Positions 46,904 through 63,375 of a DNA stretch of 64,000 bases are shown piece after piece (position 1 is the stretch's first letter; each line of letters opens with the position of its first letter). Origin of the DNA: an uncultured Flavobacteriales bacterium (GTDB lineage: Bacteria > Bacteroidota > Bacteroidia > Flavobacteriales_D > Crocinitomicaceae); assembly GCA_903945495.1 (NCBI GenBank), contig CAJAVU010000021.1:62001-126000 (forward strand). Direction: 5' to 3'. The position numbers and the translations under genes are program-made. Under the pieces are notes generated by a model that had not been told where the DNA came from, made no database searches, and saw only the letters and a list, made by a program, of their open reading frames with translations.

Positions 46904-47950
46904 TTAAACTAAACGCTTTAGCAAAATCAATCCATGGCGCACACCATCAAATTGATTGTAAAGAAGAACTGTTTTAGGCTGTTTAGAGATATTTCCCATC
47001 AACTCTGGGTGATTCACAAGTTTATTTCGAACTAATTCAGAAGCCAAATACAAACCAAAAGCTGAAGAAGTGCGATACTCTCCAACAAAATTCTTGTAAT
47101 ACGTGAATTCAGCATTCGGGAATAGTTGGGTAACGTGGTCATACCAACCATCGTATCTTCCATCACCGCTTTTTCCTAAGACAAGAGCATCCACATCCTC
47201 GACGTTTAACTCATTTTTGGCTAAAAGTGAAGCGATTCTTTCACTAAGTTCATGTTCACTTGGATACGTCAATTGCTCTACAGCACAAATTTCTGCATAA
47301 GCGTCTTCTGGTGAACTAGCTACAATGAACATACTTGCCCCTTCGCCGCAGACAGAACCGTCCGTTGAACTGTTTAGCAAATCTTGATTGCTCAATTGTT
47401 CTTTTTTATAGCGTCCCGCTTGTAAATCAATATTGTAATTGTAATCTGAAATTTCTTCAACTGCGCCGACTATCAAACTCGATGGGTTTTCTTGTTCACT
47501 AAAAAACAATTCTGCATCTACCAGCGCATTTTCAAATGAAAGAGATCCATTCACATGCGTCACATTGTAACCAGGATTGTCATACATTAAGGCCAATTGT
47601 CCTGCAAGTGCATTTGGCGTACTTTGTACAAAATGTGTTGGTGTCAACATTCCTTCATTATAATCAACAATCTGGTTTAGAAAATTGATACAATTCTCGA
47701 GTCCACCATTCGCTGTTCCTATAATAATTCCGTCCGTTTTTGCATTTCTTTTCATCAACGGTAAAGCAGCACCAATTCCCATTTTTACAGCTTTTCCCAT
47801 GCGTCGCAAAAGACTTGGTGGAATAAACTCTGCATAATCAGCATCGATTACTTTGAATGTTTTTGATTCGTGTACAACAAAATCTCCTTCTTCAAAGGTT
47901 GAATTGAATGTTTTCTGTGGCGATATGGCAAAGGCATCTTTTAGAAACAT
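46904..47950 (-). CDS. Degenerate ketosynthase (chain-length-factor-like) of the pigment cluster
   Basis: 348 residues from ATG 47950, overlapping the preceding ketosynthase stop by ten bases. It keeps the thiolase-fold landmarks (FIPPSLLRRMGKAVKMGIGA, HFVQSTPNALAGQLAL, then THVNGSLSFENALVDAE) but Asn-Gly at 134-135 replaces the nucleophilic Cys and the two catalytic His motifs are missing. It is therefore unlikely to condense acyl groups itself and probably pairs with the ketosynthase encoded just upstream, as chain-length factors do in type II PKS and aryl-polyene systems. Last gene of the cluster in this direction. Confidence 0.75.
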   Translation of the reverse strand: MFLKDAFAISPQKTFNSTFEEGDFVVHESKTFKVIDADYAEFIPPSLLRRMGKAVKMGIGAALPLMKRNAKTDGIIIGTANGGLENCINFLNQIVDYNEGMLTPTHFVQSTPNALAGQLALMYDNPGYNVTHVNGSLSFENALVDAELFFSEQENPSSLIVGAVEEISDYNYNIDLQAGRYKKEQLSNQDLLNSSTDGSVCGEGASMFIVASSPEDAYAEICAVEQLTYPSEHELSERIASLLAKNELNVEDVDALVLGKSGDGRYDGWYDHVTQLFPNAEFTYYKNFVGEYRTSSAFGLYLASELVRNKLVNHPELMGNISKQPKTVLLYNQFDGVRHGLILLKRLV

Positions 47951-49134
47951 TTCGAAAAGATTAAAGAGGTACAATTTCCTCCAAACCCAAAAGAATTGGA
48001 TAAAACATTCTTCAATTCTGCCTGCTGATACGTCACAATGGGTGGAGTATTAAATTCTTCATTGGGTGTTGAACATCGCAAACTTGGATACAATTCATTG
48101 TTCACCATACTCAACAAAGAAAAAACGGCTTCCAATGCTCCTGAAGCAGCGAGTGTATGTCCTGTATAGGATTTTGTCGAATTAAATGGCGGTACTTTTT
48201 CAAACACCTTTTTTAACGCTACCGTTTCTGTAAAATCGTTGTTTTGTGTTCCTGTGCCGTGTGCGTTGATGTAATCAATTTCGGTTGCTGGCAAATTTGA
48301 TTTCTTCAAAGCACGTTCCATTGCCAAAACTGGTCCACGAGCATCATCAGAGGTTGTTGAAGGATGAAAAGCATCATTTGCGTTTCCAAACCCCGTTAAT
48401 TCGGCATATTTATATTTGTCTGAGCAAACATGTTCCGCCTCGAGTACCGCGTACGCAGCGCCTTCTCCCAAGGTTAATCCTTTTCTGTTTAGATCAAACG
48501 GCTGACACGCTTCATCGCTTAAAATCATAAGTGAATTGAAGCCATTGACCGTATACTTTGCAAGACTATCTGCACCTCCAACGATTACGCGATCTGCTTT
48601 TCCGCTTTGAATCAAACGTGCTCCAAGGTAAAATGCATTGGCTGAAGAAGAACAAGCTGTATTGATTGTATCCGTAAAACCTTTGATTTGATGGCGTTTA
48701 ACAATTCGCAACAAATGATCGGAACCTTCATAGGATTGCACAAAATTGGAAGCTTCCCCTTTCATGTTTGCATCGGCATACAATTCATCGGTATAGCACA
48801 TTCCTCCAACTGTACTTCCAGAAATAAAAGCCGTTGATTGTAAACTAATTTGATCTGACGACAAGTTTGCATTCTCAATTGCTTGATTGAAAGCATAGAG
48901 TGCGAGTAAAGTTGTTCTGGTGTACTCTTTTTCTGTTGATGAATCTGTCAAGCGACTTAAATCATCATCACTTAACTTAACTTCACCAAACAAGAGTGTT
49001 TCTTTATAATTGGATTCAAAATGCTGTGCTTTTCCGATTCCAGAAATACCATTTTGCAGGGCATGACGCTGTTCCTCCAAATTTGTACCAATGGAAGAAA
49101 TTGCTCCTAATCCAGTTACAAAGACTTTCGTCAT
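47941..49134 (-). CDS. Beta-ketoacyl-ACP synthase II-type (pigment cluster, copy 1)
   Basis: 397 residues from ATG 49134; an earlier in-frame start at 49170 would lie inside the ACP gene. The catalytic triad is intact: C161 in NTACSSSANAF, H292 in INAHGTGTQNND and H326 in SYTGHTLAASG. It would elongate the polyene or fatty acyl chain on an acyl carrier protein. It follows an ACP gene by one base and is followed by a degenerate partner, a pattern repeated at 58489-60851. Confidence 0.9.
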   Translation of the reverse strand: MTKVFVTGLGAISSIGTNLEEQRHALQNGISGIGKAQHFESNYKETLLFGEVKLSDDDLSRLTDSSTEKEYTRTTLLALYAFNQAIENANLSSDQISLQSTAFISGSTVGGMCYTDELYADANMKGEASNFVQSYEGSDHLLRIVKRHQIKGFTDTINTACSSSANAFYLGARLIQSGKADRVIVGGADSLAKYTVNGFNSLMILSDEACQPFDLNRKGLTLGEGAAYAVLEAEHVCSDKYKYAELTGFGNANDAFHPSTTSDDARGPVLAMERALKKSNLPATEIDYINAHGTGTQNNDFTETVALKKVFEKVPPFNSTKSYTGHTLAASGALEAVFSLLSMVNNELYPSLRCSTPNEEFNTPPIVTYQQAELKNVLSNSFGFGGNCTSLIFSKCF

Positions 49135-49135
49135 T

Positions 49136-49399
49136 CTATTTTGTACGATTGGCAATAATGTAATCCACAATTGTGTTTACATCCACTAATATTTGTCTTC
49201 CCTCTGTTGGGTTTTTAATTTTAATACCATATTCTCTGTCCAAAAGAACGATAAGTTCAACAGAATCGATGGAATCTAAACCTAAATCACCGCCAAATAA
49301 TGGTTCTTCGTTATTAATCTGTTCAGGGGTCGTATCCAACAGATTCAAGTATTGAATTAAGTGATTCTTAAATTCTACTATTACTTCTTCTCTAGTCAT
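49136..49399 (-). CDS. Acyl carrier protein (pigment cluster, copy 1)
   Basis: 87 residues with the phosphopantetheine site in GGDLGLDSIDSVELIVLL; the modified serine is that of DSIDS. Four-helix ACP layout and acidic composition. Lies between the ABC permease and the ketosynthase, so it is likely the dedicated carrier for that KS pair. Confidence 0.93.
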   Translation of the reverse strand: MTREEVIVEFKNHLIQYLNLLDTTPEQINNEEPLFGGDLGLDSIDSVELIVLLDREYGIKIKNPTEGRQILVDVNTIVDYIIANRTK

Positions 49400-49405
49400 G
49401 TCTTG

Positions 49406-50692
49406 TTAAATGTAGTTTTGAACTCTCAATTTTAGGTAGGTAAAAAACTGGCAACCCAAAATGAATAATGTTAAGAAAATAAGCGAACCTGTTAGTTCAC
49501 TCCATGCTCCATTCTTTAAAAATAATGTATAATAACCTTCTATGCACCAATGTAATGGAGAAATTTTTCCTAATTGTTGCATGTATTCAGGCATTACGAA
49601 AGATGGTACCCAAATTCCACCAATTGCAGCAAAAATAATGATCGATATTGCTCCAAATCCGTTTGCTTGTTCTTGTGTTTTAGCGTAAACTCCAATCAAC
49701 AACGAATAACTAATTGCGGCAATTGCAGAAAGTACGGATATGGTAATTACGGGCCAAATACTTGAAGGCAGTTCCAATTGTGGTAATTCTATGTAAGGAA
49801 ACACAAAAATTCCAATCATGAACATGATCGTTAATTGCGTCAACGCCACGAACAAATAGACAATAATCTTACTCCAAATCGTCAATAAAAAGGCAGACGG
49901 AATGGTTTGTAAACGAATAAAACTTCCTGATAACCTTTCTTTTACAATGTTTCCTCCGAGTGAGATAACCATGAAGAACATCGCAAATAAAGACCAAGCC
50001 GGTACATTGTGTTGAGAAGAATTTGGAACGCTTGCGCCTTCGCCTTCAACTGCCGGAACAGGATTAATTGGTGCTTGTTTCGCAATCAATTCTTTACGGA
50101 TATGGTCTGGAATTTTGTCATACCCCATATCACGAAACAGTTGCTCCATCATATCCTGATTTTCCAATCCTGAAATAATGGTATTGATACCCGTCATAAT
50201 CGATAAACGGAAATTTTCTTGAAGAATTGGGTCAAAGAACAAATCAATTTGCGCATTTTTCAACGCTTTTTTATTCTTGGTTTGGCTTGTCGAATCCACA
50301 ACACCGAATTCTGTCAACATCAAATTGGATATTTTAGCAGAATTGGATTGAATTCCTTTCGAAAAATTCACAGGAATGTAAATCGACATCAATTTTTTGC
50401 GATCCAAGGTTTCTTTCTTCAAGCGATTGATCGACAGATTATCATCAATTTCAATGGCGAAATTCCCCGACAATTTCAAACGATTAATCAACGAATCACC
50501 CATTGCACCTTTATCGTCGTTGATGATTAACAATTCAAGTCGGTTTTCATTCACCAATTTAAACGCACTGTCCTGAACCAAAGTAATGATGAAAACAAGT
50601 AATAAAGGCATAAGATACATCAATAGTAATCCTACCTTGTCACTCATTAACAGAAGTAACTCTTTTTTTAGGGAAACAAGTAATTTCTTCAT
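49406..50692 (-). CDS. ABC-2 type transporter permease
   Basis: 428 residues. One N-terminal membrane helix (VGLLLMYLMPLLLVFIITLV), an extracytoplasmic region of about 200 residues, then five or six helices at the C terminus, including SLFAMFFMVISLGGNIVKER and AIAAISYSLLIGVYAKTQEQ. This is the ABC-2/YhaP-type exporter topology. Its start overlaps the stop of the ATPase gene by one base. Likely exports the pigment or its precursors, or positions them in the membrane. Confidence 0.88.
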   Translation of the reverse strand: MKKLLVSLKKELLLLMSDKVGLLLMYLMPLLLVFIITLVQDSAFKLVNENRLELLIINDDKGAMGDSLINRLKLSGNFAIEIDDNLSINRLKKETLDRKKLMSIYIPVNFSKGIQSNSAKISNLMLTEFGVVDSTSQTKNKKALKNAQIDLFFDPILQENFRLSIMTGINTIISGLENQDMMEQLFRDMGYDKIPDHIRKELIAKQAPINPVPAVEGEGASVPNSSQHNVPAWSLFAMFFMVISLGGNIVKERLSGSFIRLQTIPSAFLLTIWSKIIVYLFVALTQLTIMFMIGIFVFPYIELPQLELPSSIWPVITISVLSAIAAISYSLLIGVYAKTQEQANGFGAISIIIFAAIGGIWVPSFVMPEYMQQLGKISPLHWCIEGYYTLFLKNGAWSELTGSLIFLTLFILGCQFFTYLKLRVQNYI

Positions 50693-51435
50693 CAGTCTCT
50701 CAATTGTTTACCTGTTAAATTGATCAATAAATCTTCCAAATTGGCCACGTTGTTTTCTTTTAAGAGCACTTCAACAGTATTAACCGTAATGATTTTTCCA
50801 TTGTCCATTAACGCAATTCGCGAACAAAAATCTTCTGCTTCACGCAAATGGTGCGACGTATAAATCAAGGTGATTCCTTTTTTATTTAATTCTTCCAATA
50901 AGTGAATAATCACCAATTTACTTTGCACATCCACTCCAACTGTTGGTTCGTCCAAGAAAACGATTTTCGGTTCGTGAATCAATCCTATCGCCAAGTTAAT
51001 ACGACGTTTCATTCCTCCCGAAAAAGTACTCACTTTCTTATTTGCAACGGTATCCAAGCCAAGCGTTTGTAACAATTCATTGGTTCTGCTTTTCACTTTT
51101 TTAGCGTCCATTCCAAAAGCGCCACCGAAGTAGTGCAAATTTTGTTTAGCCGTCAATTCTGGATAAAAAGCAAAGTCTTGTGGAACAAAACCAACATACG
51201 GTAAAATTTCCTTCAAGTGCATTTCCTTTCCATCTATTGAATAGGTTACTGTGCCACTTGTTGCTTTCAGGATATTGCACAAAATTGAAATTAAGGTCGT
51301 TTTTCCAGCGCCATTTGGACCAAAAATCCCAAACTTTTCACCAGGAAAAATGGAAAGACTAACGTCATCCAAGCTCGGTGATTTTGAGTTACCGTATATT
51401 TTAGTAATATCGTGAATTGCTATAATTGGATCCAT
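50692..51435 (-). CDS. ABC transporter ATP-binding protein
   Basis: 247 residues: Walker A GPNGAGKTT at 39-47, Q-loop VPQDFAFYPELTA, signature FSGGMKRR at 138-145, Walker B IVFLDEPTVGVD near 158-169, H-loop TSHHLREAE. Type typical of ABC-2 exporters. Coupled to the permease downstream. Confidence 0.93.
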   Translation of the reverse strand: MDPIIAIHDITKIYGNSKSPSLDDVSLSIFPGEKFGIFGPNGAGKTTLISILCNILKATSGTVTYSIDGKEMHLKEILPYVGFVPQDFAFYPELTAKQNLHYFGGAFGMDAKKVKSRTNELLQTLGLDTVANKKVSTFSGGMKRRINLAIGLIHEPKIVFLDEPTVGVDVQSKLVIIHLLEELNKKGITLIYTSHHLREAEDFCSRIALMDNGKIITVNTVEVLLKENNVANLEDLLINLTGKQLRD

Positions 51436-51436
51436 T

Positions 51437-52444
51437 TCAAATTTTAATTTTAGACAATTCCTTAAAGGCTTCTTTCTCCAATTTACTAATCTCGTTTAGC
51501 AAATTTGCACAATCATCGTAATCCTTTTGGGAATTCAATCGTCCTTTATAAATTCCAGACATCAACAAGGCTGAGTCGCGCCATAAATCACCCGATTTGG
51601 TCAATTTATCTGATATTTTCAGCAATTCTTTGTTGCCTGTAATTGTACTTGCTTCGTCAAGAAAAGCTGCGTACAAATAGCGAAATCCACCACCACCAGT
51701 ACCAATTTCTTCCTGCATACGAACGATTTGGCCCAAGTAAAGAGCGGCTTGTTTTTCGCCTAACTTCTCTCTCCAACCTCTTATTTTCTTTGCTGTATAA
51801 TTGATTCCTTTCACGCCAGCAACACCACCAGGAATGCGCAACATATCGCGGCAATTGCGTTTAATCGCATTTTTAATCGCCAAACGCAAGGTTTCGTTCG
51901 AAATATCACCAACTGATTTTGGAAAATACAATTGTCCTTTTGGGGCCAATGCTCCCTGCGCAAAACGTACTTTTTCTAATTCTTCTGGAGACAAACTTGT
52001 TGTTGTTTCCATTACAGGATCACTGATCAAGTAGCGTCCATCTTCCTTGCCGTAAACGATTAAATTATGTGCGTTAAAGTGAAAACGGTATTCTTTTGGG
52101 AAGTAAGCTAAATGAAATACGCCTACTTGACAACCAACAGGTTCGCCATCTTGTATTTTTTGTTCAAGGAACTTTTGTGCTTCTATTTTTGATTTGAATT
52201 TGCGACGGTCAACGTCCACGTTCAATGCTTTACACGTACGTTTAAAAATGGCACCCGGCATTGTACGAAAAGAAATTGCTGGACCATTGTTTACTTTCAT
52301 AAACGGAATATGAATATAAAACAGACCAGAACCCAAGCCAAAAGCAAGTGGTTCGGTAATAAAATCCACACCATGATGTTTCAGTAAGCTTACTGTTACG
52401 CCATTTTCGCAATGTGCCGTTTGATTATGTCTAAATTCCTGCAC
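51437..52444 (-). CDS. BtrH-type acyltransferase (DUF4872/BtrH_N family)
   Basis: 335 residues. The N-terminal 150 residues match the butirosin biosynthesis protein H fold, with a papain-like set: C12 in HNQTAHCENGV, H126 in FHFNAHNLIVYG, D142 in YLISDPV. BtrH moves an acyl group from an acyl carrier protein to an amine acceptor. The C-terminal part is helical, with RIPGGVAGVKGINYTAKKIR conserved in the family. In this cluster an acyl-ACP-to-resorcinol transfer would make the flexirubin ester; this is inference. It overlaps the preceding small gene by one base. Confidence 0.8.
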   Translation of the reverse strand: MQEFRHNQTAHCENGVTVSLLKHHGVDFITEPLAFGLGSGLFYIHIPFMKVNNGPAISFRTMPGAIFKRTCKALNVDVDRRKFKSKIEAQKFLEQKIQDGEPVGCQVGVFHLAYFPKEYRFHFNAHNLIVYGKEDGRYLISDPVMETTTSLSPEELEKVRFAQGALAPKGQLYFPKSVGDISNETLRLAIKNAIKRNCRDMLRIPGGVAGVKGINYTAKKIRGWREKLGEKQAALYLGQIVRMQEEIGTGGGGFRYLYAAFLDEASTITGNKELLKISDKLTKSGDLWRDSALLMSGIYKGRLNSQKDYDDCANLLNEISKLEKEAFKELSKIKI

Positions 52445-52842
52445 TAAAATTGGGTGTTTTTTAATTCATTCAATTCTACATCGAACGCTGCTGCGTATTT
52501 CTCTAATTTCTTGTCGCTCAATTTCGAAAAAACGGCAGGTTTCATGTGGCGTTTAATTTGAAACTTCCAAAAACCTGTGTAACCAGCCAAAACAGTTAAA
52601 TCCATTAACCTCAATTCCATAAAGTAATAAATTGGGCTTTTTTCACCCTTCTTCACACTCAATTTTGCTTCTTCGATTCGCTCTTCGATATCTTTCCACG
52701 CAGAATTCAAGGCTTCTGTCTTTACTTCCCAACCTGTACTCAATTCAGCTTGGTAATTCCCTTCCTCGTTTTTCACATAGCACACTTCACGCGTGAAATT
52801 TACCAATGCGCTTTCATCTTGAGGAAGTTCCGATTTTTTCAT
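52444..52842 (-). CDS. Unrecognised small protein between DarB and the BtrH-type gene
   Basis: 132 residues, no signal peptide or membrane segment, mixed charge, with two helical halves and Trp/Tyr-rich middle (GYTGFWKFQIKRHMKPAVFS). I do not recognise a family. One-base overlap with the BtrH-type gene and close spacing to the ketosynthase III gene indicate co-expression, possibly as an accessory of the acyltransferase. Confidence 0.7.
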   Translation of the reverse strand: MKKSELPQDESALVNFTREVCYVKNEEGNYQAELSTGWEVKTEALNSAWKDIEERIEEAKLSVKKGEKSPIYYFMELRLMDLTVLAGYTGFWKFQIKRHMKPAVFSKLSDKKLEKYAAAFDVELNELKNTQF

Positions 52843-52878: not shown

Positions 52879-54027
52879 TTAAACCACTGTAAACATGGCA
52901 AACACATACGTAAATCGTGCACTTTCTGGTACGGCGACCAAGATCGTATCGCCTAGCTTAAGCTTACCACTTTTCCAAAGGTCATCAACCATTAGGTAAA
53001 CAGAAGCTGCTCCAACATTTCCACAATTCTCAAGGTTTGTAAACCATTTTTCCTTTGGAATTTCCATTCCATTGGATTTTAACTCATTGTAGATTTTATC
53101 TTCGAAGAAATAGCTCGACATGTGTGGTAAAAAGTGATCCACCATGTTCACATCAATCCCATGGTTTTTAAAGATTACCTCCAAATTCTTGAAACCCAAT
53201 TTTACAATGTTCTCACCCAATAATTTTACATCTTGTTTGATACTGTAAATTGAACGTTCGATTGCTTCTTGCGGCGTGAAATCAGAAAATCCTTTTAATT
53301 CTCCGTTCTCTTGCTTTTCGGAACCCATGTACATACACGTTTCCACTTGATTGGCAAACGAAAAACCTTCTATCCAATCGATGCGCAATGAAATACCTTC
53401 CTCGTTCTTTTTGTCTTCAATTAAAAAGGCAGCTGAACCATCCGATAACATCCAACGCAAAAAATCCTTTTCAAAAGAGATATATGGATTTTCTTCCAAC
53501 TCCTCACGTTTTTTCACTTCAAGTTCGAATTGTTCAGCTCGCATGATGCGCGACAAACGTTCAGAACCTGTTGAAACGGTTTTATGCGCTTCACCCGCTT
53601 TTATCGCCATGTAGTTGTATTTCAAGGCATGCATGCCTGAGCAACAATTTCCAGATGGAGAAATTACTTCTATGTTATTTGAATTAGTCAACCAACCATG
53701 CACCATCACGCCATGTGAAGGCATCAATTGGTCGGGAGAAGATGTACCACAACTTAGCACATCAATTTCTTTCATTTCATTCGGATTCTTTTCAAAGAGT
53801 TTTTCAACCGCAATAGCCGCTAATTGAGCATTTGTATGCGTTGCTTCGCCGTTTTTAGTCATGGCATAATGTCTATTTTTTATGCCATTGTTACGCAAAA
53901 CAATTCTTCTAGATTTAGATGCTTGTTCATTTATAAACCCCAAATATGTTTCCATTTCATCATTCGAAATAGGTTCATTTGGTAAGAACGCTGCTGTTCT
54001 CGTTATAAATACTTCTTTTAAACTCAT
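52879..54027 (-). CDS. darB: Beta-ketoacyl-ACP synthase III-type, DarB (dialkylresorcinol) ketosynthase
   Basis: 382 residues, KAS III fold. Nucleophile C129 in SPSGNCCSGMHAL, His in DHFLPHMSSYFF, Asn in ENCGNVGAASVYL; GTSSPDQLMPSHGVMVHG is in the entrance region. DarB-type enzymes join two beta-keto acyl units and cyclise them to the resorcinol precursor. The stop-to-start distance to the DarA gene is zero, and DarA/DarB adjacency is the diagnostic pair for dialkylresorcinol and flexirubin clusters. Confidence 0.88.
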   Translation of the reverse strand: MSLKEVFITRTAAFLPNEPISNDEMETYLGFINEQASKSRRIVLRNNGIKNRHYAMTKNGEATHTNAQLAAIAVEKLFEKNPNEMKEIDVLSCGTSSPDQLMPSHGVMVHGWLTNSNNIEVISPSGNCCSGMHALKYNYMAIKAGEAHKTVSTGSERLSRIMRAEQFELEVKKREELEENPYISFEKDFLRWMLSDGSAAFLIEDKKNEEGISLRIDWIEGFSFANQVETCMYMGSEKQENGELKGFSDFTPQEAIERSIYSIKQDVKLLGENIVKLGFKNLEVIFKNHGIDVNMVDHFLPHMSSYFFEDKIYNELKSNGMEIPKEKWFTNLENCGNVGAASVYLMVDDLWKSGKLKLGDTILVAVPESARFTYVFAMFTVV

Positions 54028-54936
54028 TTATTTCTTCAATTCAACGCCACAAAAGTACGTTTTTTTCTCCTTAATTCCTTTTGAACTGAAAGGACGTATT
54101 AAGATCGAATAGAACGTAAGTACTATTGGTGCAACCATAAAAAGAGCTATAAATAAATAATACGTGAAAAATTTCACCCATCTTCTGCGTTTTGCTTCGG
54201 TCGTACCTTTTTTTACAATGGCATTTGCCCAAATCAAAAACAACTTTTTTGCTCTTCCTTCAATAAACAAAATACTCGTGTTTATGTTCACTTCACCTGT
54301 CAATAATATTCTTTTTTGAAAATTCTCTAAGATGTTATTTGTGAGGTCTTCATTCAACAGTTGACCAAACTTTCCTGCTTGATCGATGTCTTCTTGATTT
54401 ACTCCGGGAAGTGGAAAAACACCCCATTTTTTTTCTTTTTTGCCCGTTAACATCCAATGTAAAATGGTCACGGCACTCAACAAATTGTTCGTTTTATCAA
54501 TAAACGGTACGTTTCCAACAAGTTTTCCTCCTGCGTCTTGAATTAATTTCTTGACACTTTCCTGCGCATTCAACCACATGTTTCTTGAGCCAATAACCGT
54601 TACAACCGGCGTGTCTTTCAGTAAACTTTTGAATTTTTCGTTCTTCAACAAGGCAGTTGTCGGCAACGAAGGTGATAAAAACCAGGGTTGATATCCTAAA
54701 ACAATAAGGTCGTATTTTTCGCAGTTGTAGTGAATATCCTCCACTTCATAATTCACTTCCAAAACAGTTTCTGGCATCGTGTTAAAGAACTCATGGCTTC
54801 TCCATGGAAAGGAAAATGACTTCTTTGATGTGTAATTGACAAAATCAATGTTTCCTTGCAAGGGTTTACTGAATTTCTCAACAATTTCAGTTAGTTGACC
54901 AGATTGAGAGTATGAAATGACAAGTATGTTCTTCAT
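54028..54936 (-). CDS. darA: Dialkylresorcinol condensing/aromatising enzyme, DarA type
   Basis: 302 residues from ATG 54936 (MKNILVISYSQSGQLTEIVE); a longer reading from 55008 overlaps the previous gene. The N terminus is flavodoxin-like (SYSQSGQ phosphate loop), followed by LIVLGYQPWFLSPSLPTTAL and VVTVIGSRNMWLNAQESVKK. One membrane helix at about 258-278 (YYLFIALFMVAPIVLTFYSI) precedes a short basic tail. DarA aromatises the cyclohexanedione made by DarB. Immediately upstream of darB. Confidence 0.88.
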   Translation of the reverse strand: MKNILVISYSQSGQLTEIVEKFSKPLQGNIDFVNYTSKKSFSFPWRSHEFFNTMPETVLEVNYEVEDIHYNCEKYDLIVLGYQPWFLSPSLPTTALLKNEKFKSLLKDTPVVTVIGSRNMWLNAQESVKKLIQDAGGKLVGNVPFIDKTNNLLSAVTILHWMLTGKKEKKWGVFPLPGVNQEDIDQAGKFGQLLNEDLTNNILENFQKRILLTGEVNINTSILFIEGRAKKLFLIWANAIVKKGTTEAKRRRWVKFFTYYLFIALFMVAPIVLTFYSILIRPFSSKGIKEKKTYFCGVELKK

Positions 54937-54943
54937 GTAAAGG

Positions 54944-55606: not shown

Positions 55607-56767
55607 ATGTTCACCGTTGAATCCATAAATGGTTGTGTAATTATTCCAACCTACAATAACCAAAATACGCTAAAACGCGTGATTGATGGCGTATTAGAAA
55701 TAGTACCCAAGCATGCTGTTATTATTGTAAATGATGGTTCAACAGACAAGACCGAAGAAATTTTAAAGGAATATGCTTCTGATTTGGTGATCCTAAAAAA
55801 TGATCCAAATGCCGGTAAAGGTCTTGCCTTGCGTAAAGGATTTAAAAAGGCGTTTGAACTCGGTTTTGAAAATGCCATTACCATCGATTCAGATGGACAA
55901 CATTTTCCAAGTGACATTCCTTTGTTAATTGAAAAAGCAATTGAGCATAAAGGAGCCGTTATCATGGGTTCTCGTAACATGCAACAAGATGGCGTGCCTC
56001 AAAAAAGCTCATTCGGAAATAAATTTTCTAACTTTTGGTTCAAAATCGAAACGGGCATTTCCTTACCTGATACCCAAACAGGTTTTCGTATTTATCCACT
56101 GAAACCAATCAGTAAAATGAACCTTTTCACGAAAAAATTCGAACTTGAAATTGAAGTTATTGTTCGTTTAGCGTGGAGAAGAGTCAAATTTGTGCCTGTT
56201 TCCATTCAAGTGAAATATGATCCAAATGAACGTGTTTCTCATTTTCGACCGGGAAGAGATTTTTTCAGAATCAGTGTGTTAAATAGCGTTTTGGTATTCT
56301 TTGCTTTGATTTATTATTATCCCAAAAAGTTTTTTTCGTTTCAGACCTTAGCGCACATTAAGCAAGAAGCTGTAAAACCGAATGAAACAAATTTGAAAAA
56401 AGCACTTTCAATCGGATTTGGCTTTTTCATGGGTATTTTCCCGATTTGGGGTTTTCAGCTCCTGATTGGAATTCCATTGGCTGTGTTGTTTCGCTTGAAC
56501 AAAGTACTTTTTATCACCGCTGCAAACATTTCAATTCCACCAATGATTCCATTGATCATCTATTCAAGTTTGCTAACGGGTCAACTATTTGTTTCTGGAG
56601 AAGTGCACTATTCCAGTGTGCTTGACTTTTCGAGCAAAGAAGTGCAAAGCAATATTTACCAATATGTCGTTGGTGCAATTTTATTAAGCGTTTTTGCCTT
56701 TTTAGCTGGATTTGTTGTCACCTATGGTTTATTGACAATCTTTCGAAAAAATCCTGTTAAAGAATAG
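55607..56767 (+). CDS. Glycosyltransferase family 2 fused to DUF2062 membrane domain
   Basis: 386 residues. GT-A catalytic part to about 230: VIIPTYNNQNTLKRVIDGVL, VNDGSTDKTEEIL, ITIDSDGQHFPSD (acidic metal motif) and TGFRIYPL. The DUF2062 domain (about 265-380) has GFFMGIFPIWGFQLLIGIPL, an amphipathic loop ANISIPPMIPLI and closing helices. This fusion recurs in Bacteroidota pigment and lipid loci. It is the only plus-strand gene of the cluster, and its end overlaps the convergent dehydratase gene by 11 bases. Confidence 0.82.
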   Translation: MFTVESINGCVIIPTYNNQNTLKRVIDGVLEIVPKHAVIIVNDGSTDKTEEILKEYASDLVILKNDPNAGKGLALRKGFKKAFELGFENAITIDSDGQHFPSDIPLLIEKAIEHKGAVIMGSRNMQQDGVPQKSSFGNKFSNFWFKIETGISLPDTQTGFRIYPLKPISKMNLFTKKFELEIEVIVRLAWRRVKFVPVSIQVKYDPNERVSHFRPGRDFFRISVLNSVLVFFALIYYYPKKFFSFQTLAHIKQEAVKPNETNLKKALSIGFGFFMGIFPIWGFQLLIGIPLAVLFRLNKVLFITAANISIPPMIPLIIYSSLLTGQLFVSGEVHYSSVLDFSSKEVQSNIYQYVVGAILLSVFAFLAGFVVTYGLLTIFRKNPVKE

Positions 56768-57128
56768 CGTACGTTGCCGCTATCTTTAAAAATGAAGTAG
56801 TATCATCTGCAAGTTGTCCTGAAATACGCACAAACGTATCATCCATCTCCGATATACTAATTTTCACATGTACGTTTTCTATGTTGATTGGATTCAATAC
56901 CGCTAAAAACTTACACGAAGACATTGTTTTCATTTTAAGCGGTTTCTCTAGGCCTAGCGAAAGAATTTCTTTCACAATTTCCATCTCCACAACACCTGGT
57001 GTTACAGGATTGTTCGGAAAATGACCTTCAAAAATGGCATGAGACGCATTCAATTTGATGGTTGCATCTACTGCGTTTTCACCTTTCGTTAGCTCAGTAA
57101 CGGTATAAAATGTATCGTTTAAAATCAT
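56757..57128 (-). CDS. Hotdog 3-hydroxyacyl-ACP dehydratase (FabZ/ApeI-like)
   Basis: 123 residues. The active-site loop AIFEGHFPNNPVTPGVVEME contains the catalytic His of GHFP and the downstream Glu of the FabZ family. Short length and charge pattern match the dehydratases in aryl polyene clusters. It would make the trans double bonds of the polyene. Start coupled to the LolA gene by one base. Confidence 0.85.
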   Translation of the reverse strand: MILNDTFYTVTELTKGENAVDATIKLNASHAIFEGHFPNNPVTPGVVEMEIVKEILSLGLEKPLKMKTMSSCKFLAVLNPINIENVHVKISISEMDDTFVRISGQLADDTTSFLKIAATYAIL

Positions 57129-57754
57129 CAGAAACTTGTAAATTTAGTATCATTAATTGTTGGGTTCACCTGCGCATTGCTAAAAGTGTAAACGATCTTT
57201 TCATCTTCACTTTCCACTAAACTCATATCCTTTAACAGGCAATCTTTTTTGTCAAAAAACAACACAATCGATTCAATGTATTTCGATAAGCGCTCTGAAT
57301 TTGGTTTCAAGACCAATTTATATTGCGTTGTGTTTTCGTAATAGGTAATCGCAAAATCTTTACCATCCAAAAAGCTTCCAGAGAGCATTTTCACCATTAA
57401 GTCTTGTATTTTCTTTACAACCGCTTTTGATGTCGGGTTCTTTACTTCTTTCCCGTTCTCACTGTATTTGACTTTGCTTCCATCAATCAATAAGATCTTT
57501 TTTGTGGGACTCGTATGTTCCCAACGAATCTTATTGGATTTTTTATAGCTCAATTTGCCCGTTGCTTTCTGCGCATCATCGAACATTTCAGAATAAACAG
57601 TTTCTTTAAAATCAGCCGTCAATGATTTAATTGTATTTTGCTTTTTTTGAATGGCTGTTTTACACTTCGCCGCATCACTCATTTTTTTAAACTCTTGCCC
57701 CGACACATTTAGTGAAAGCAAAAGAAGAACTACTAAACTGCTAATTAATTTCAT
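57128..57754 (-). CDS. LolA-like outer-membrane lipoprotein carrier (pigment cluster)
   Basis: 208 residues with signal peptide (MKLISSLVVLLLLSLNVSG). The LolA half-barrel pattern is present: IKSLTADFKETVYSE, GKLSYKKSNKIRWEHTSP, KILLIDGSKVKYS. Clustered LolA proteins in aryl polyene loci are thought to ferry the lipid-like product across the periplasm. Overlaps the deacetylase gene by 14 bases. Confidence 0.82.
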   Translation of the reverse strand: MKLISSLVVLLLLSLNVSGQEFKKMSDAAKCKTAIQKKQNTIKSLTADFKETVYSEMFDDAQKATGKLSYKKSNKIRWEHTSPTKKILLIDGSKVKYSENGKEVKNPTSKAVVKKIQDLMVKMLSGSFLDGKDFAITYYENTTQYKLVLKPNSERLSKYIESIVLFFDKKDCLLKDMSLVESEDEKIVYTFSNAQVNPTINDTKFTSF

Positions 57755-58508
57755 TCGTTATTCTTATTAAGTGTTGCTCATTGGCAAAGATAATGCCTTT
57801 TTCTTTGGCTTTGCTAAGATAGCTGTCGAGTGAATCTCTAGATTGAACTAAATTGTCGTGCAACAAGATGATACTTCCCGGTTTTGAAAGTCGCACTAAA
57901 CGCTTGGCTAGTTTCATGGGATTTTTTACAACTGTATCATACGAACGCTGGTTCCAACCTATCACTTTTACACCCAAATCCTTTACAACTCTTGCAATGA
58001 TTGGATTTGAATAACCAATTGGCGGTCGAAATAGTTCGGTTTGAATTGCATGAATATCCAAAACTGTTTGTAACTGTTGTATTTCATTTTTCACTTTTTT
58101 CCCACTCAACAAGGCAAACATTGGATGATGCGAAAAAGTATGGTTGCCAATTCGATGACCTTCGTGAAGCATACGTTGCACAATTTCAGGATGCGCGAGT
58201 GCTTTTTTACCAATCACAAAAAAGATGGCTTTCACATCGTGTTTATTCAACGTATCCAAAATCATCGGTGTCGTTTCTGGATTTGGACCATCGTCGAAGG
58301 TCAATAACACTGCTGGTTTATCAATTGTAACGATTGACTTCATGAAATAATTGAAACGCAAAAACAAAACGCCAGCGCTCAAAACAAGAAAAAAGAAGCC
58401 AAATGCTAGGAAAAGAAATAGGAAAAAATGATCACTTGATCTAAAAAACAGAACAAGAACACCAACATTCAGTGCGAAAAGCAGTGTGTTAATTGTGTGT
58501 TTTGTCAT
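57741..58508 (-). CDS. Polysaccharide deacetylase (NodB) domain membrane protein
   Basis: 255 residues. Two N-terminal membrane helices (about 8-24 and 28-50) precede the NodB domain: LLTFDDGPNPETTP (catalytic/metal Asp pair), GNHTFSHHPMF (metal His), FRPPIGYSNP and VIGWNQRSYD, with IILLHDN at the end. It acts on the periplasmic side, probably on N- or O-acyl groups of a lipid or sugar. Overlaps the preceding degenerate ketosynthase gene by 20 bases. Confidence 0.8.
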   Translation of the reverse strand: MTKHTINTLLFALNVGVLVLFFRSSDHFFLFLFLAFGFFFLVLSAGVLFLRFNYFMKSIVTIDKPAVLLTFDDGPNPETTPMILDTLNKHDVKAIFFVIGKKALAHPEIVQRMLHEGHRIGNHTFSHHPMFALLSGKKVKNEIQQLQTVLDIHAIQTELFRPPIGYSNPIIARVVKDLGVKVIGWNQRSYDTVVKNPMKLAKRLVRLSKPGSIILLHDNLVQSRDSLDSYLSKAKEKGIIFANEQHLIRITNEIN

Positions 58509-59415
58509 TTTTTAAGAGAATCAAACCTAAATAGTTGTTGCTGCTTCGGTTGACAATTAGTGCAAATTCCTTCGTTGAACTTTTCAAAAAATCATGTGCT
58601 ACATGCACAGCAAAAGCAGATGAAGATTGATTAAATCCTAGTTGATCATCGATGTGAAACACTTCACTATTTGCAGGTGTTTCCAATTCATTTGTATTCA
58701 GAACAAAGCAATTGATTTGCTCCAATGATAAACCGAAAGCTGCGAGAAAAGCGTTCGTTTCAACTGAAATTTCAGCTGCATTCGCTATTGTTTTGCATGC
58801 AAGAATAGCAATTGAACTTTCCATTTTATCGGCGCTAATCGCCAAAAAAGTTGCACTTGTTGTAAACAGCGTTTCGCTATCAAAAACAGATGGTTTCAGT
58901 TTGTTTAAAAACTCTATTGATTCGTCTGCTGCACCCACCAATACATTTTTCGAACCTTCTTCACAACACAACATGCCATCAATCAATGCCATTTCAAACG
59001 ACAAGTTGTTTTGTGTGTGTGTCATGTTATAGGAATGATTTCCTAAATCCAAGGAAATTTGTCCAGCGATTGTATTGTGCGTTGATTGAATAAAAGCTGT
59101 TGGAGAAAGCACATCGCCTTCTACCGTATAAATTACATTTAGAAATTTTTCTGTATCTGTTAAACAGCCCAAACCAGTTCCCACAGAAATCGCATCGAAA
59201 GGTTGATCCACCGCTGCTTGAACTTCTTTTGCCAGTGTAATTCCCATTCGTAAGATTGGACTTAAGCGACGCAAGGCAGTTGGTGCAATGTACGTTTTAA
59301 AATCAGGTGTTACGAGCGTTGGATTTTCAGAAACTTCGACCAATTTTTGATGGATGTCTTCTTGCTTAAAAACATCGCTATTGTTCATCGATTGGATTGC
59401 GTGAATATAATACAT
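58489..59415 (-). CDS. Degenerate ketosynthase (chain-length-factor-like), copy 2
   Basis: 308 residues. Similar to the protein at 46904: YIAPTALRRLSPILRMGIT, FIQSTHNTIAGQISLDLG, then YNMTHTQNNLSFEMALIDG. Gln-Asn at about 135-136 replaces the nucleophile and no HGTGT or GHT motif is present. It starts two bases after the end of an intact ketosynthase gene and is therefore its likely non-catalytic partner. Confidence 0.75.
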   Translation of the reverse strand: MYYIHAIQSMNNSDVFKQEDIHQKLVEVSENPTLVTPDFKTYIAPTALRRLSPILRMGITLAKEVQAAVDQPFDAISVGTGLGCLTDTEKFLNVIYTVEGDVLSPTAFIQSTHNTIAGQISLDLGNHSYNMTHTQNNLSFEMALIDGMLCCEEGSKNVLVGAADESIEFLNKLKPSVFDSETLFTTSATFLAISADKMESSIAILACKTIANAAEISVETNAFLAAFGLSLEQINCFVLNTNELETPANSEVFHIDDQLGFNQSSSAFAVHVAHDFLKSSTKEFALIVNRSSNNYLGLILLKNDKTHN

Positions 59416-59417
59416 GG

Positions 59418-60593
59418 CTACAGTTTTGAAAAAATTAAACTTGAATTATTTCCACCAAACCCAAAGGAGTTGGATAAAACATTGCGCACATTTTCAATTC
59501 GCGTGATTTGTTTCACTGGAATCAATCCTGTTTCTTCAATCGGTGTCGTGTGATTTAAATTTGGAAACAACACATTGTTTTGGATACTCAAAACGGCGAT
59601 TACCGCTTCAATTCCACCACATGCCGCAAGTGTATGTCCTGTATATGCTTTTGTTGAACTAAAAGGAGGAACTTTTCCTTCAAATACGTTTATAAAGGCT
59701 TTCGATTCAGAACTATCGTTGTTTGGCGTTGCCGTTCCATGGGCATTTATATAATCAATATCTGTTGGTTGCAAGTGTGCCACAGAAAGCGCTTTTGTCA
59801 TCGCCAAAACTGCCCCATTTCCTTCTGGTGATGACGCTGTTTGGTGATAAGCATCCGAGGCATTGCTCCAACCCGTTAATTTTGCGAGTGGTGTTTTCCC
59901 AGTAAGTTGCAAGGATTTTTCAGATTCCAATACAATATAACCTGCTCCTTCTCCTAAATTTAATCCTTTGCGGGTTTCATCAAACGGACGACACCATTCT
60001 GGGTCAAAAATCATGAGTGATCTAAAACCTGAAATGGTAAAATGAGTTAAACTATCAGTTCCACCTACCACAACACGATCCAATTGATTTGAACGAATCA
60101 GTCGAGCGCCCATCATAATTGCATTGGCTGCAGAGGAACAAGCGGTAGAAATTGTATTCACAAAACCAGTAATTCCAAGTTCTTCTGCCATTTGCTCGGT
60201 GGTTGTTCCACTTGGATGATGTTTGTACTTTTCAGCATCAAAGGTCTCGGTCTTCAGGTAATTACGGTATTCCTCTTCGGTAATATCCATTCCACCAACG
60301 GAAGTCCCTGAAATCAATCCTGTTCGAACCTCATCCATTAACTGATGTCCCTGAAACGCTTCTTTCGCAGCAACCATTCCCAAAAGTGCCGTTCTAGAAC
60401 CTTTGGTTTTGAGCTTAAAGTGTTCCATCAAACCTTCATTCGAAAGAGGAACTTCACCCACGTGATATTTCATCGAATGGTCGAGTGTTCCTTTACGAAT
60501 TCCTGTTTTTTCAGCTAAAAGGGACGCGTAAATTTCATCAACATTGTTTCCAATGGTCGAAATTGCACCTAGACCTGTGATAAAAATATCCAT
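59418..60593 (-). CDS. Beta-ketoacyl-ACP synthase II-type, copy 2
   Basis: 391 residues with complete catalytic residues: C152 in STACSSAANAIM, H285 in INAHGTATPNND, H320 in KAYTGHTLAACGG. Closest relative in the window is the copy at 47941. Sits between an ACP gene (3-base gap) and the degenerate partner (2-base gap). Confidence 0.9.
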   Translation of the reverse strand: MDIFITGLGAISTIGNNVDEIYASLLAEKTGIRKGTLDHSMKYHVGEVPLSNEGLMEHFKLKTKGSRTALLGMVAAKEAFQGHQLMDEVRTGLISGTSVGGMDITEEEYRNYLKTETFDAEKYKHHPSGTTTEQMAEELGITGFVNTISTACSSAANAIMMGARLIRSNQLDRVVVGGTDSLTHFTISGFRSLMIFDPEWCRPFDETRKGLNLGEGAGYIVLESEKSLQLTGKTPLAKLTGWSNASDAYHQTASSPEGNGAVLAMTKALSVAHLQPTDIDYINAHGTATPNNDSSESKAFINVFEGKVPPFSSTKAYTGHTLAACGGIEAVIAVLSIQNNVLFPNLNHTTPIEETGLIPVKQITRIENVRNVLSNSFGFGGNNSSLIFSKL

Positions 60594-60596
60594 ATG

Positions 60597-60851
60597 TTAT
60601 TTTTGACTTTCGATGAAACTTGCTAGCGAATCAATTGAATGAAAAATCTCACGTGCATCCGATGGATCCGAGATTTTAATCCCATAATTCACATCTAATA
60701 GAACGATAAATTCCAAGGCATCAATGGAGTCTAATCCCAATCCCTCGTCACCAAACAACGGTGCTTCATTCTTAATATCAGAAGGTGTTAAATCTTCCAG
60801 ATTCAATTGCTCAATAATTTGAGCTTTTAGGTTTTCTTTTAATTCACTCAT
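60597..60851 (-). CDS. Acyl carrier protein, copy 2
   Basis: 84 residues. Phosphopantetheine serine lies in EGLGLDSIDALEFIVLL. Overlaps the preceding gene by eight bases. The two ACPs of the cluster are alike in the DSID core and in a shared VLLDxxYGIKI segment. Confidence 0.93.
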   Translation of the reverse strand: MSELKENLKAQIIEQLNLEDLTPSDIKNEAPLFGDEGLGLDSIDALEFIVLLDVNYGIKISDPSDAREIFHSIDSLASFIESQK

Positions 60852-61452
60852 TTCTATAGGATTTAAGTAGTGTTGTTAATTGTTCAATTTCAAATGTGTC
60901 CGCTGATTTTTCCAGTAAAAATAAAAAACACTCTTCATTTTCGCTTCCGTTCATTTCAACCCAACCGCACAAACAGTAATCATTTCCTCTCAAAAATGAA
61001 AACATCGCTTGGTCAGCAAAAAATTGGGCATCAAACGCTGGTTGAATAAAAAAGCAATTTTCCCCATACCATTTGTGTTTTATGGAGATTTCACCAGTTA
61101 AAATATTTGGCAAAGTATAAACGAATAAAGAAGGACTTGGATTGTTATTGATTTCATACGATTCAATGTATTTCAAATCTGTTTGTTTACTCGAATCGTT
61201 GTTGGCAAAAACCAGCTGTAATTTATTTTCCAAATCCACTAAATCTGCATAAAACGGCTCCAGCAAGTAATCTGAAATAAAAGCACTTTTTGAAAGCGCA
61301 TCCATTTTATGAAATTTTGGATAATCGATGGTTAATTCTCTGTAATACGTCTTCAAAAAATCGTTTGGTTGCTCGCTATCTGCATGCGCAACTTTGACAC
61401 CATTTAAAAATGCTGCTTTCCGATTTAAGTAACTATGTGCGATCAACTTCAT
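60844..61452 (-). CDS. Half-length degenerate ketosynthase-fold protein
   Basis: 202 residues, not recognised from motifs alone. Compared by eye with the degenerate ketosynthases nearby, it follows the same order over the N-terminal half of a thiolase fold: DYPKFHKMDALSKSAFISDY at 43-62 (like RR(M/L)..MGI), then LFVYTLPNILTGEISIKHKW near 109-128 (like FIQST.N.IAGQISL), FIQPAFDAQFFADQAM near 135-150, and LCGWVEMNG near 161-169 (like the VGGAE strand). The nucleophile position has no Cys and the C-terminal half with both catalytic His is missing. Overlaps the ketosynthase gene upstream by four bases and the ACP gene downstream by eight. Confidence 0.6.
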   Translation of the reverse strand: MKLIAHSYLNRKAAFLNGVKVAHADSEQPNDFLKTYYRELTIDYPKFHKMDALSKSAFISDYLLEPFYADLVDLENKLQLVFANNDSSKQTDLKYIESYEINNNPSPSLFVYTLPNILTGEISIKHKWYGENCFFIQPAFDAQFFADQAMFSFLRGNDYCLCGWVEMNGSENEECFLFLLEKSADTFEIEQLTTLLKSYRNE

Positions 61453-62525
61453 TGTACTTTTTTTAGAATTAATGAAGCATTTCCACCACCAAAGCCAGAA
61501 GCCGTTTTCAAGATGGTTGTTAGTTCCTTTTCACGGTTTTCCTCAACAATCGCCAAGGTTTGTGTTGTTCCGCATTGCTGATAACCCAAGGACTTAATCA
61601 AAGTATTTTTCTCCATGGAAATCATGCAAGAAAGTAGCTCAATGATTCCAGCCGCACCCAAGGTGTGACCAAAATAACCTTTCAAACTATTCAACGGTGT
61701 TTGTTCCAATCCCAAACGATTAAAGGCGATTGCTTCCATTTCGTCGTTGTAAATTGTCGCTGTTCCATGTGCCGAAACAAAATCGATTTCTGTTTTATCC
61801 ATTCCCGCTCGTTCAAGCGTCTTTGTAACAGCTCTTACCAAGCCTTCACCTGTTCTTGAAGGACCTGAAATATGATTGGCATCATTTGATGAAGCTCCAG
61901 CGATATATTCCGCAAAAACGCCTTCTTCGCGTTCATTGGTCATTAAGATGATTCCACATGCTTCGCCAAGTGAAATACCTTTTCGTTCTGCGTCGAATGG
62001 CTTACAGACTTCATTTCCCAAGGCAAACAAACTCTGAAAACCGTAAATTATAAAATCTGAAAGGACGTCAATTCCGATAATAATTGCGCGGTCAAATTTT
62101 CCAGCTTTCAAATAATCAGCGGCAACATTAACGGCTACAACTCCCGAAATACATGCATTTGAAATAATGACTGGATCGACTTCTTGGTGCAACTCTTTTT
62201 TGATTAATGTGCGTGTTGATTCAAAAGTATCTCCTGGCAATAAGCGCATATTGGCCTTTGTCGTGCTAACAAAAATACCAGTTCGTGGAGACTTTAATAT
62301 TTCAGCATCCCAGATTGATTCCAGTGAACCAAGTGCTTTTTCCAACAAGGCATCATAATCTCCGGAAAGTTCATTCATTTTTCCTAGAAACCAATTCTCA
62401 TTGTTAAATCCAGAACCTTCCACTTGTTTTATTCCTGAATTATTTGACAATAAGGCATGCGCATGATCCTCTATGGTTGTTCCAAGCGGACTTATCAAAG
62501 CACCATATTTCAAATAACATTTCAC
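61449..62525 (-). CDS. Beta-ketoacyl-ACP synthase, third intact copy
   Basis: 358 residues, 30-40 shorter than the other two intact copies. C125 in SNACISGVVAVN, H253 in VSAHGTATIYND and H287 in GYFGHTLGAAG are all present; the nucleophile context NACISG differs from the usual TACSS. Overlaps the thioesterase gene upstream and the half-length protein gene downstream by four bases each. Probably a distinct specificity, such as initiation of the polyene chain. Confidence 0.88.
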   Translation of the reverse strand: MKCYLKYGALISPLGTTIEDHAHALLSNNSGIKQVEGSGFNNENWFLGKMNELSGDYDALLEKALGSLESIWDAEILKSPRTGIFVSTTKANMRLLPGDTFESTRTLIKKELHQEVDPVIISNACISGVVAVNVAADYLKAGKFDRAIIIGIDVLSDFIIYGFQSLFALGNEVCKPFDAERKGISLGEACGIILMTNEREEGVFAEYIAGASSNDANHISGPSRTGEGLVRAVTKTLERAGMDKTEIDFVSAHGTATIYNDEMEAIAFNRLGLEQTPLNSLKGYFGHTLGAAGIIELLSCMISMEKNTLIKSLGYQQCGTTQTLAIVEENREKELTTILKTASGFGGGNASLILKKVQ

Positions 62526-62950
62526 TCGTTGATCCAGTTTTGATTATTTTCCCAAGCTTCATAAAACTCAGGTTTTGCCAATTCTAATTCTCTCGTTTCA
62601 GCATTCATAAACACTTGCATGGTCATTCCTGTCGCTGCAATTTTATTGGTTGTAGTGTTCCAAACCGTGTATCTGAAAACTATTTTGGCGGCATCGTGAC
62701 GTTCCAATGTTGCTTGAACTTTCACGTTTTCACCGTAGTTAACAGTTGTTTTATGATTGATTTCTGATTTTACGATTGGAGTGAAAAAACCTTTTGCATA
62801 CACATCTAGGTATTCCATTCCGTAATCTAAACCAAATTTTTCGCGTGCGTCTTCGAAGAATTTCAAGTAATTTCCATGCCAAACCACGCCCATTGCGTCT
62901 GTTTCGCTGAACCTTACTGTAATATCGACTTCACTTTGAAGAATCATCAT
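62522..62950 (-). CDS. Hotdog acyl thioesterase (YbgC/4-hydroxybenzoyl-CoA thioesterase family)
   Basis: 142 residues from ATG 62950, which overlaps the previous stop as ATGA. VRFSETDAMGVVWHGNYLKF has the catalytic Asp in the expected place, followed by GENVKVQATLERHDAAKIVF. Would release acyl chains from the carrier or remove stalled ones. Confidence 0.85.
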   Translation of the reverse strand: MMILQSEVDITVRFSETDAMGVVWHGNYLKFFEDAREKFGLDYGMEYLDVYAKGFFTPIVKSEINHKTTVNYGENVKVQATLERHDAAKIVFRYTVWNTTTNKIAATGMTMQVFMNAETRELELAKPEFYEAWENNQNWINE

Positions 62951-63375
62951 GCTAAAACAATTTTCATTTGGCATTTAAGTAATTCCGTTTCATTGCATCT
63001 GACTGTTCCTTCAATCAAATGAATGTTTTCAAAGGTATTGAGTATCTCAACACGCGTATCTAATTGGTCGTTCACGTGTGCTTCACCAAAAACCTCTAGC
63101 TTCGTTACAGCCCCAATAAAACCCAAACGCGGTTCTGTTTGACCTTCCAAGCTACTTAGATAACCGAATCCGGCAGCACACGTTTGCGCAATATTTTCTA
63201 CTAAAGCACCTTCAGACGCACTAGTTCCATCCAACATGCAATTTGTATCCACGATTTTAAACGTACTGTTAAAACCAGAATTATCCGCATTCAATAAACC
63301 ATCAATCATGATAAAAGGTTCTCTTTGCGGAATTATTGTTTTAATTTTTGCTTGATCAATCAACATAATATTCAT
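62947..63375 (-). CDS. Hotdog 3-hydroxyacyl-ACP dehydratase (ApeP-like)
   Basis: 142 residues from ATG 63375 (63366 also possible). IIPQREPFIMIDGLL and SEGALVENIAQTCAAGFGY are the features of the short ApeP-like dehydratases in aryl polyene loci. The GHFP motif of FabZ is absent, so catalysis would differ from the dehydratase at 56757. Overlaps the acyltransferase gene by 20 bases. Confidence 0.78.
   Translation of the reverse strand: MNIMLIDQAKIKTIIPQREPFIMIDGLLNADNSGFNSTFKIVDTNCMLDGTSASEGALVENIAQTCAAGFGYLSSLEGQTEPRLGFIGAVTKLEVFGEAHVNDQLDTRVEILNTFENIHLIEGTVRCNETELLKCQMKIVLA

Follow-up and report, generated by a model that had tools for sequence, protein, structure and literature searches.

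DarH of a flexirubin-type gene cluster from an uncultured Flavobacteriales bacterium, a candidate cysteine acyltransferase for the ester-forming step

Flexirubins, which are orange bacterial pigments, serve in the classification of Bacteroidota, and in the literature found the enzyme that joins their two halves, an aryl polyene acid and a dialkylresorcinol, has so far been guessed only. The formation of the resorcinol from DarA and DarB in Escherichia coli is reportedly due to Fuchs in 2013. In the accessible text of the 2014 flexirubin paper, darA and darB of Chitinophaga pinensis alone give the flexirubin resorcinol in E. coli, and a ligase-like protein, FlxW, is proposed for the ester step. 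Genes darABC of Pseudomonas chlororaphis were named for dialkylresorcinols, according to the excerpt available of that source. CcbD of lincosamide biosynthesis and LmbD are described in the accessible sections of a review as passing a carrier-bound acyl group to a Cys residue and from there to the acceptor in a ping-pong reaction; CcbD accepts fatty acyl groups, and both enzymes use a Cys-His-Glu triad and form amides. CtaG of closthioamide biosynthesis is proposed, in the part of the source available, to move a 4-hydroxybenzoyl group from a carrier protein to a tri-beta-alanyl carrier protein. BtrH of butirosin biosynthesis is an ACP:aminoglycoside acyltransferase, and its N-terminal domain, BtrH_N, is placed close to the C39 and C70 peptidases in the accessible portion of a 2023 JBC classification. 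Likewise, the available text of a 2010 paper considers BtrH-family proteins as transacylases that free acyl groups from ACP or transfer them.

A comparable gene is found in another phylum. The arcuflavin dar cluster of Azoarcus sp. BH72, as given in the accessible part of a 2014 paper, contains DarE (azo0290), listed as a 'BtrH-like peptidase', and the authors predict arcuflavin to be a polyene-resorcinol ester. The darE gene lies between darD/darB and an ABC ATPase gene, with an ABC permease, an ACP and a ketosynthase further on, which is the order of the locus described here. However, the Azoarcus cluster has two extra genes (Phd and PilT-type) between the ATPase and the permease and uses other gene letters, and DarE is likened to DarH by description and gene place, not by sequence.

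The window, the 64,000-nucleotide stretch of DNA analysed here, contains a dar module whose genes follow each other on the minus strand in the order darA, darB, darG, darH, ABC ATPase, ABC permease, ACP and two ketosynthases. The resorcinol-forming ketosynthase gene darB (52879..54027) encodes a protein matching NF053539 at 617.6 bits (cut-off 550). No Pfam or NCBIfam match was obtained for the product of the preceding gene (54028..54936, with a likely ATG start at 54936 within the ORF 54028-55008), which we take to be DarA because its gene adjoins darB; in other dar loci, too, the gene next to darB matches it. Past darH lie the genes for the ABC transporter ATPase (50692..51435; PF00005) and permease (49406..50692; PF12698), an acyl carrier protein that is a possible acyl donor (49136..49399; PF00550), a ketosynthase (47941..49170; PF00109/PF02801) and a ketosynthase-like partner (46904..47974; PF13723). 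Besides the ketosynthases, DarH is the sole protein of the module with a recognised acyl-transfer fold.

Upstream of darA and also on the minus strand is an aryl polyene module, of which the part inside the window spans 56757..63793 and which continues in G000:C21:125001-143009. A FabA-like protein (56757-57128), a thioesterase (62522-62974) and an LPLAT-type acyltransferase (Lip_A_acyltrans) that runs past the window end were identified by Pfam matches. The module's acyl carrier protein, the other possible donor (60597..60851; reference ACP1), was named from sequence, as were its LolA-like and deacetylase-like proteins, ketosynthases and second dehydratase. A 202-residue protein (60844..61452) with no Pfam or NCBIfam match was used as the presence marker of the module. 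Beyond the window follow a ketosynthase, ketoreductase-like and ammonia-lyase-like ORFs, an FlxJ-like methyltransferase (454 bits, under its cut-off of 560), flavoproteins (one of them halogenase-like), an MMPL-like exporter ORF, FlxY (567.5 bits, cut-off 520) and a C45 acyltransferase; several of these names, including that of the ammonia-lyase-like ORF, were assigned without a model match. A glycosyltransferase gene with a DUF2062 domain (55607..56767) lies on the plus strand between the two modules, and this order recurs in Fluviicola-like loci and some others (L058, L059, L066, G475).

The darH gene encodes 335 residues from a GTG start and occupies 51437..52444 of the minus strand, exactly where a sequence-only reading of the window had placed a BtrH-type protein; its start overlaps the end of darG by one base. 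That reading is confirmed by three models over their cut-offs: residues 11-143 match BtrH_N (PF14399; 170.4 bits, cut-off 29.7), followed by DUF4872 at residues 154-330 (PF16169; 196.9 bits, cut-off 28), and the protein as a whole matches the equivalog NF053550, DarH_acyl, at 466.1 bits (cut-off 300) over positions 1-324 of the 325 in the profile. The curated NCBIfam name of the latter is 'BtrH-related acyltransferase DarH', and no difference was seen between this family and the protein of the window over the full length. Since the family has already been named by NCBIfam, the gene is not new; all 44 members of our DarH alignment (A2) match NF053550 at E 0.001 or better, and among the matches listed, two proteins of Fluviicola MAGs are the closest (76 and 75% identity), so that the window probably stems from a Fluviicola-like member of the Bacteroidota. 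The DarH family is thus real, conserved and previously named. The sequence-only reading had also coupled DarH to a cluster making an acyl-ACP and a phenolic acceptor, in agreement with the family-model matches of the ACP, the ketosynthases, DarG and DarB.

The residues singled out by that reading, Cys12, His126 and Asp142, are invariant in all three alignments, namely in 13/13 (A1), 44/44 (A2, DarH) and 14/14 (A4, diverse) sequences, counts that each include the DarH of the window itself. A4 combines three DarH proteins with 11 less closely related members of the family, encoded in Bacteroidota, in Actinomycetota, on an Acinetobacter plasmid and on plasmids of haloarchaea; these 11 share 22-30% identity with the window protein. 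The codons, with positions computed from the start at 52444 and all on the minus strand, are at 52409..52411 for Cys12, the predicted nucleophile, at 52067..52069 for His126, the predicted catalytic base, and at 52019..52021 for Asp142, the predicted third member of the triad. A further motif, GTGGGGFR, is found in DUF4872 (residues 248-255; 51680..51703, minus strand), and G248, T249, G250, G251, F254 and R255 are invariant across the diverse set.

A structural model of DarH, built on 44 sequences (pLDDT 91.5, pTM 0.89), shows the first helix beginning at Cys12 and a strand beginning at His126, with Asp142 just past the next strand, and the order and secondary structure of the three residues fit a papain-like Cys-His-Asp triad. 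When structural neighbours of the model were ranked with Foldseek and VIA-align, the top whole-length matches were CtaG, AziU3 and CcbD, with Z 20.5-24.7 over 293-306 residues. CtaG (9qvj) aligns with Z 24.7 and an rmsd of 3.2 over 295 residues at 12% identity, and its C11, H128 and D144 have the same order and spacing as C12, H126 and D142 of DarH; the titles of PDB entries list the CtaG variants C11A, H128A and D144N, one H128A entry with PHBA bound. CcbD (Z 20.5-22.0), for which a carrier-protein donor and a Cys acyl-enzyme are described in the accessible review text, has also been solved with its carrier protein. AziU3 of azinomycin biosynthesis (Z 22.3-23.9), solved in complex with AziU2, shares the fold over the whole length but does not keep the GTGG motif in the profile alignment. 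AziU3 catalyses a different reaction. C39 peptidases come next, with Z of at most 14.3, ComA aligning over model residues 3-178. Searches of solved structures by sequence with DarH alone, with its close relatives or with one Streptomyces relative found no relative, whereas the diverse profile A4 found the C39-like 3erv as best match (E 6.9e-6), AziU3 and, weakly, CtaG (E about 0.08); several designed coiled coils also matched by A4 are clearly chance. The predicted fold of DarH is that of the carrier-protein-dependent cysteine acyltransferases. With its domain pair, its invariant triad and the whole-length two-domain fold of the predicted model, DarH has features of the BtrH/CtaG/CcbD type, and the acyltransferase activity implied by NF053550 is predicted from family name, fold and triad. 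The likeness to BtrH itself, which gives its name to the N-terminal domain and whose acceptor is an aminoglycoside, is by description only, taken from the accessible text.

The small partner gene darG (52444..52842, minus strand) encodes a protein that matches the NCBIfam model 'flexirubin biosynthesis protein DarG' (NF053545) at 192 bits (cut-off 170) and NF053536 at 185 bits. In its model (pLDDT 79, with the first 40 residues poor), residues of about 64-132 resemble XRE/SinR-type helix-turn-helix domains (Z 8.7-10.6, rmsd 1.4-3.2 over 61-68 residues), a likeness that is weak for a small helical domain (best Foldseek E 0.043); a match to 4mud (E 0.0088) was judged to be chance. DarG occurs in 49/49 genomes with DarH over the cut-off, including one genome (G316) in which darG and darH are both present on different contigs (L164, L165).

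The gene order was compared in 80 loci, the best 80 of at least 578 relatives, all Bacteroidota by title. DarH has DarG as a neighbour in 79, DarB in 76, the ABC ATPase in 70, DarA in 69 and the ABC permease in 68, and the one locus without DarG starts at a contig edge. The end of darG lies no more than 300 bp before darH in 79 of the 80 loci, and the start of the ABC ATPase gene no more than 300 bp past it in 68. In one genome (G017), the 20 kb examined around darG-darH and around darA-darB contain no other gene of the cluster in either case. A polyene core is in view in 19 loci, the other 61 being left unjudged in the ACP survey. In 12 of the 19, the sole ACP found adjoins darG-darH-ABC downstream, an arrangement suggesting that the polyene, too, can be served by this ACP; no thioesterase or LPLAT was found in these 12 loci and L121, where the stretches end no more than about 10 kb from darH. 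Among the remaining seven, four have two ACPs, two have one clear and one weak ACP and one has none under the length filter, an ACP being visible in the neighbourhood listing of the same locus.

Across genomes, DarH tracks the resorcinol genes. In a sample of 198 Bacteroidota genomes, DarH is over its cut-off in 12, and the same 12 have DarB at 518 bits or more (11 over cut-off); the aryl polyene marker is found in these 12 and in G118, and any BtrH_N over cut-off in these 12 and in G158, 13 in all. Among 325 genomes of the class, 51 carry DarB (41 over cut-off), 49 carry DarH, 48 carry the two together and 56 carry the marker; the two samples overlap and consist of related genomes, so that the counts are not independent and the Fisher values computed from them are not to be taken as probabilities. 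Genomes with a sole match of 387-403 bits in ORFs of 617-635 residues (G209, G226, G368, G411) were not counted as having DarB. DarA, DarG and the C45 acyltransferase were searched for in 59 genomes, one of which (G118) comes from the 198-genome sample. Absence of the family from other flexirubin clusters, named beforehand by the sequence-only reading as telling against its proposal, was looked for and not observed: DarH is present in 48 of the 50 genomes with darA and darB, and in none of the seven aryl-polyene genomes without the pair. The corresponding numbers for DarG are 50 (one a contig-end fragment) and 0. Six of the seven pair-less genomes lack both genes, and the seventh, G263, has a lone DarB with no DarA match and no DarH. 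When only genomes with a completeness of 90% or more and no more than 5% contamination are considered, DarH is found in 42/43 with the pair vs 0/5 without it.

The exceptions are few. Of the two genomes with the pair and without DarH, G335 has a darG that runs off the end of its contig (C109; 9,632 bases), and G362 (83% complete) has darA, darB, an intact darG and a darH broken by stops, which may be an error or a true loss. Two partial genomes were set aside, G383 (68% complete, DarA only) and G331 (78% complete), in which DarG and DarH lie on a contig of 3,991 bases and no DarA or DarB was found; if both are included, DarH is present in 1/9 pair-less genomes. No linkage between DarB and DarH is seen in 16 of 48 genomes (on different contigs in 15, 41 kb apart in one), and breaks in draft assemblies may explain some of these cases. 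DarH matches only under the cut-off were seen in six of the 325 genomes, namely G362 and G158, G234, G239, G367 and G381, the latter five with no DarB match at 1e-100. DarB and DarH occur without a marker match in two of the 51 DarB genomes, G371 (60% complete) and G247 (98% complete). G247 has all dar genes, and because the stretches examined contain an FlxY-like ligase (50% identity) as well as two ACPs and module ketosynthases, a missed marker is likelier than true absence of the polyene; if no polyene were truly made, this genome would weigh against an ester-forming role of DarH. The samples hold no secure genome with resorcinol genes but without polyene genes.

Taken with the fold, this tracking of darA and darB supports DarH as a candidate for the enzyme joining the polyene acid to the dialkylresorcinol, as the sequence-only reading had proposed. 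We consider it fairly probable that DarH, acting as a carrier-protein-dependent cysteine acyltransferase, makes the flexirubin-type ester bond, with DarG probably as its partner. The finished aryl polyene would stay bound as a thioester to one of the cluster's acyl carrier proteins, from which Cys12 would take it to form an acyl-enzyme. Next, His126 and Asp142 would activate one phenol hydroxyl of the DarA/DarB product, the dialkylresorcinol, and attack of this hydroxyl on the acyl-enzyme would release the ester, DarG probably being required. We infer the acyl donor, the acceptor, the ester product and the role of DarG alike. The two ACP genes of the cluster, one in the dar module and one in the polyene module, provide candidate carrier-protein partners, either of which may be the donor, and transfer of the polyene from an ACP to Cys12 and on to the resorcinol hydroxyl is the simplest reading; the dar-module ACP may also serve the polyene, because it is the sole ACP found in 12 of the 19 loci mentioned above. 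Points that count against ester formation by DarH include that CcbD and LmbD form amides and not phenol esters, as described in the accessible review text, and that the thioesterase of the cluster could release the free polyene acid. A bolder version, which we hold only tentatively and regard as rather doubtful, is that DarG and DarH form a two-protein O-acyltransferase in which DarG, of transcription-factor-like fold, is an obligatory partner and not a regulator, so that the pair would represent a new branch of the BtrH/CtaG/CcbD type esterifying the resorcinol phenol directly from an aryl-polyenoyl carrier protein. Searches of the open-licence literature found neither DarH experiments (biochemistry, knockout) nor any text that credits DarH or a BtrH-like protein with ester formation. 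Having one named candidate, DarH, whose fold and catalytic residues can be recognised and whose partner is constant, makes the step directly testable, and the proposed role of DarH, if correct, would bring phenol esters into a family whose members, as described in the literature found, form amides.

It is unlikely that another enzyme of the cluster makes the ester while DarH does otherwise. Besides FlxW, which the accessible text of the 2014 flexirubin paper names for this step, the cluster has a C45 acyltransferase/hydrolase adjoining FlxY and the Lip_A_acyltrans protein. Among genomes with darA and darB, C45 (47/50) comes close to DarH in constancy, but it is also found in six of the seven pair-less aryl-polyene genomes and so does not track the resorcinol; in the more complete genomes defined above it occurs in 41/43 with the pair vs 4/5 without. 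Moreover, G099, G219 and G257, all of which have DarH, gave no C45 match at E 1e-20. The LPLAT-type protein and the thioesterase are present in all three clusters examined from pair-less genomes (L142, L143, L150), and for the LPLAT-type ApeD of E. coli the authors propose, in the accessible part of their paper, attachment of the polyene to a lipid anchor. Both the C45 enzyme, which does not track the resorcinol, and the LPLAT-type acyltransferase, present in each of those three clusters, were rejected as ester formers.

Cys-His-Asp enzymes often hydrolyse their substrates. DarH could accordingly be an acyl-ACP thioesterase or editing enzyme, or could move an acyl group for the building of the resorcinol, which would suit the ACP and ketosynthases of the dar module itself and the one DarH relative found beside two PaaI thioesterases. 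We regard this as quite unlikely, since the solved relatives that match over the whole length are transfer enzymes, a function shown for CcbD and proposed for CtaG in the accessible sources, and since darA and darB alone yield the resorcinol in E. coli, so that DarH is not needed for ring formation there and a role as resorcinol builder was rejected on the available account of that work. An involvement in export, in which a C39-like DarH would cleave or handle cargo together with the neighbouring ABC transporter, appears very unlikely. The N-terminal domain does resemble C39 peptidases (ComA, Z 14.3), the best sequence match of profile A4 is C39-like, and an adjoining transporter, with the ATPase gene so close to darH in 68/80 loci, would fit export. 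However, the acyltransferases outrank the C39 peptidases over the whole length (Z 20.5-24.7 vs 14.3), DarH is encoded by a separate gene not fused to a transporter and carries DUF4872, the ABC ATPase and permease of the window have no peptidase domain at E 0.001, and no ABC match was found in the 20 kb around darG-darH of G017. Of the explanations examined, ester formation by DarH, with its putative chemistry, fits the evidence better than the others.

Several observations concern relatives outside the dar module. BtrH_N/DUF4872 proteins with the same invariant residues also occur outside pigment clusters (L054, L055, L056, L159, L160). The protein encoded on the Acinetobacter plasmid is flanked by a TetR regulator and two PaaI thioesterases, those of Streptomyces adjoin MerR or GyrI-like regulators, and the haloarchaeal ones lie beside kynureninase or near phenylacetate genes. 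The C45/AAT gene beside FlxY (G000:C21:141318-143009; L152:1315-3009), to which no role is assigned in the accessible parts of the pathway literature found, is present in 54/59 genomes. In G263, G348 and G398 (L142, L150), the 202-residue marker is embedded in ORFs of about 600 residues, and those of G263 and G348 also match a KS3 ketosynthase. A separate DarB-like form occurs in ORFs of about 616-635 residues at 387-417 bits (L151; G209, G226, G368, G411, G219, G182). Lone DarB-like ketosynthases, with no DarA annotated or matched nearby, are found in G263 as well as on plasmids of Prevotella and Bacteroides, and lie beside a TetR, helix-turn-helix or similar-looking regulator (L052, L053, L141).
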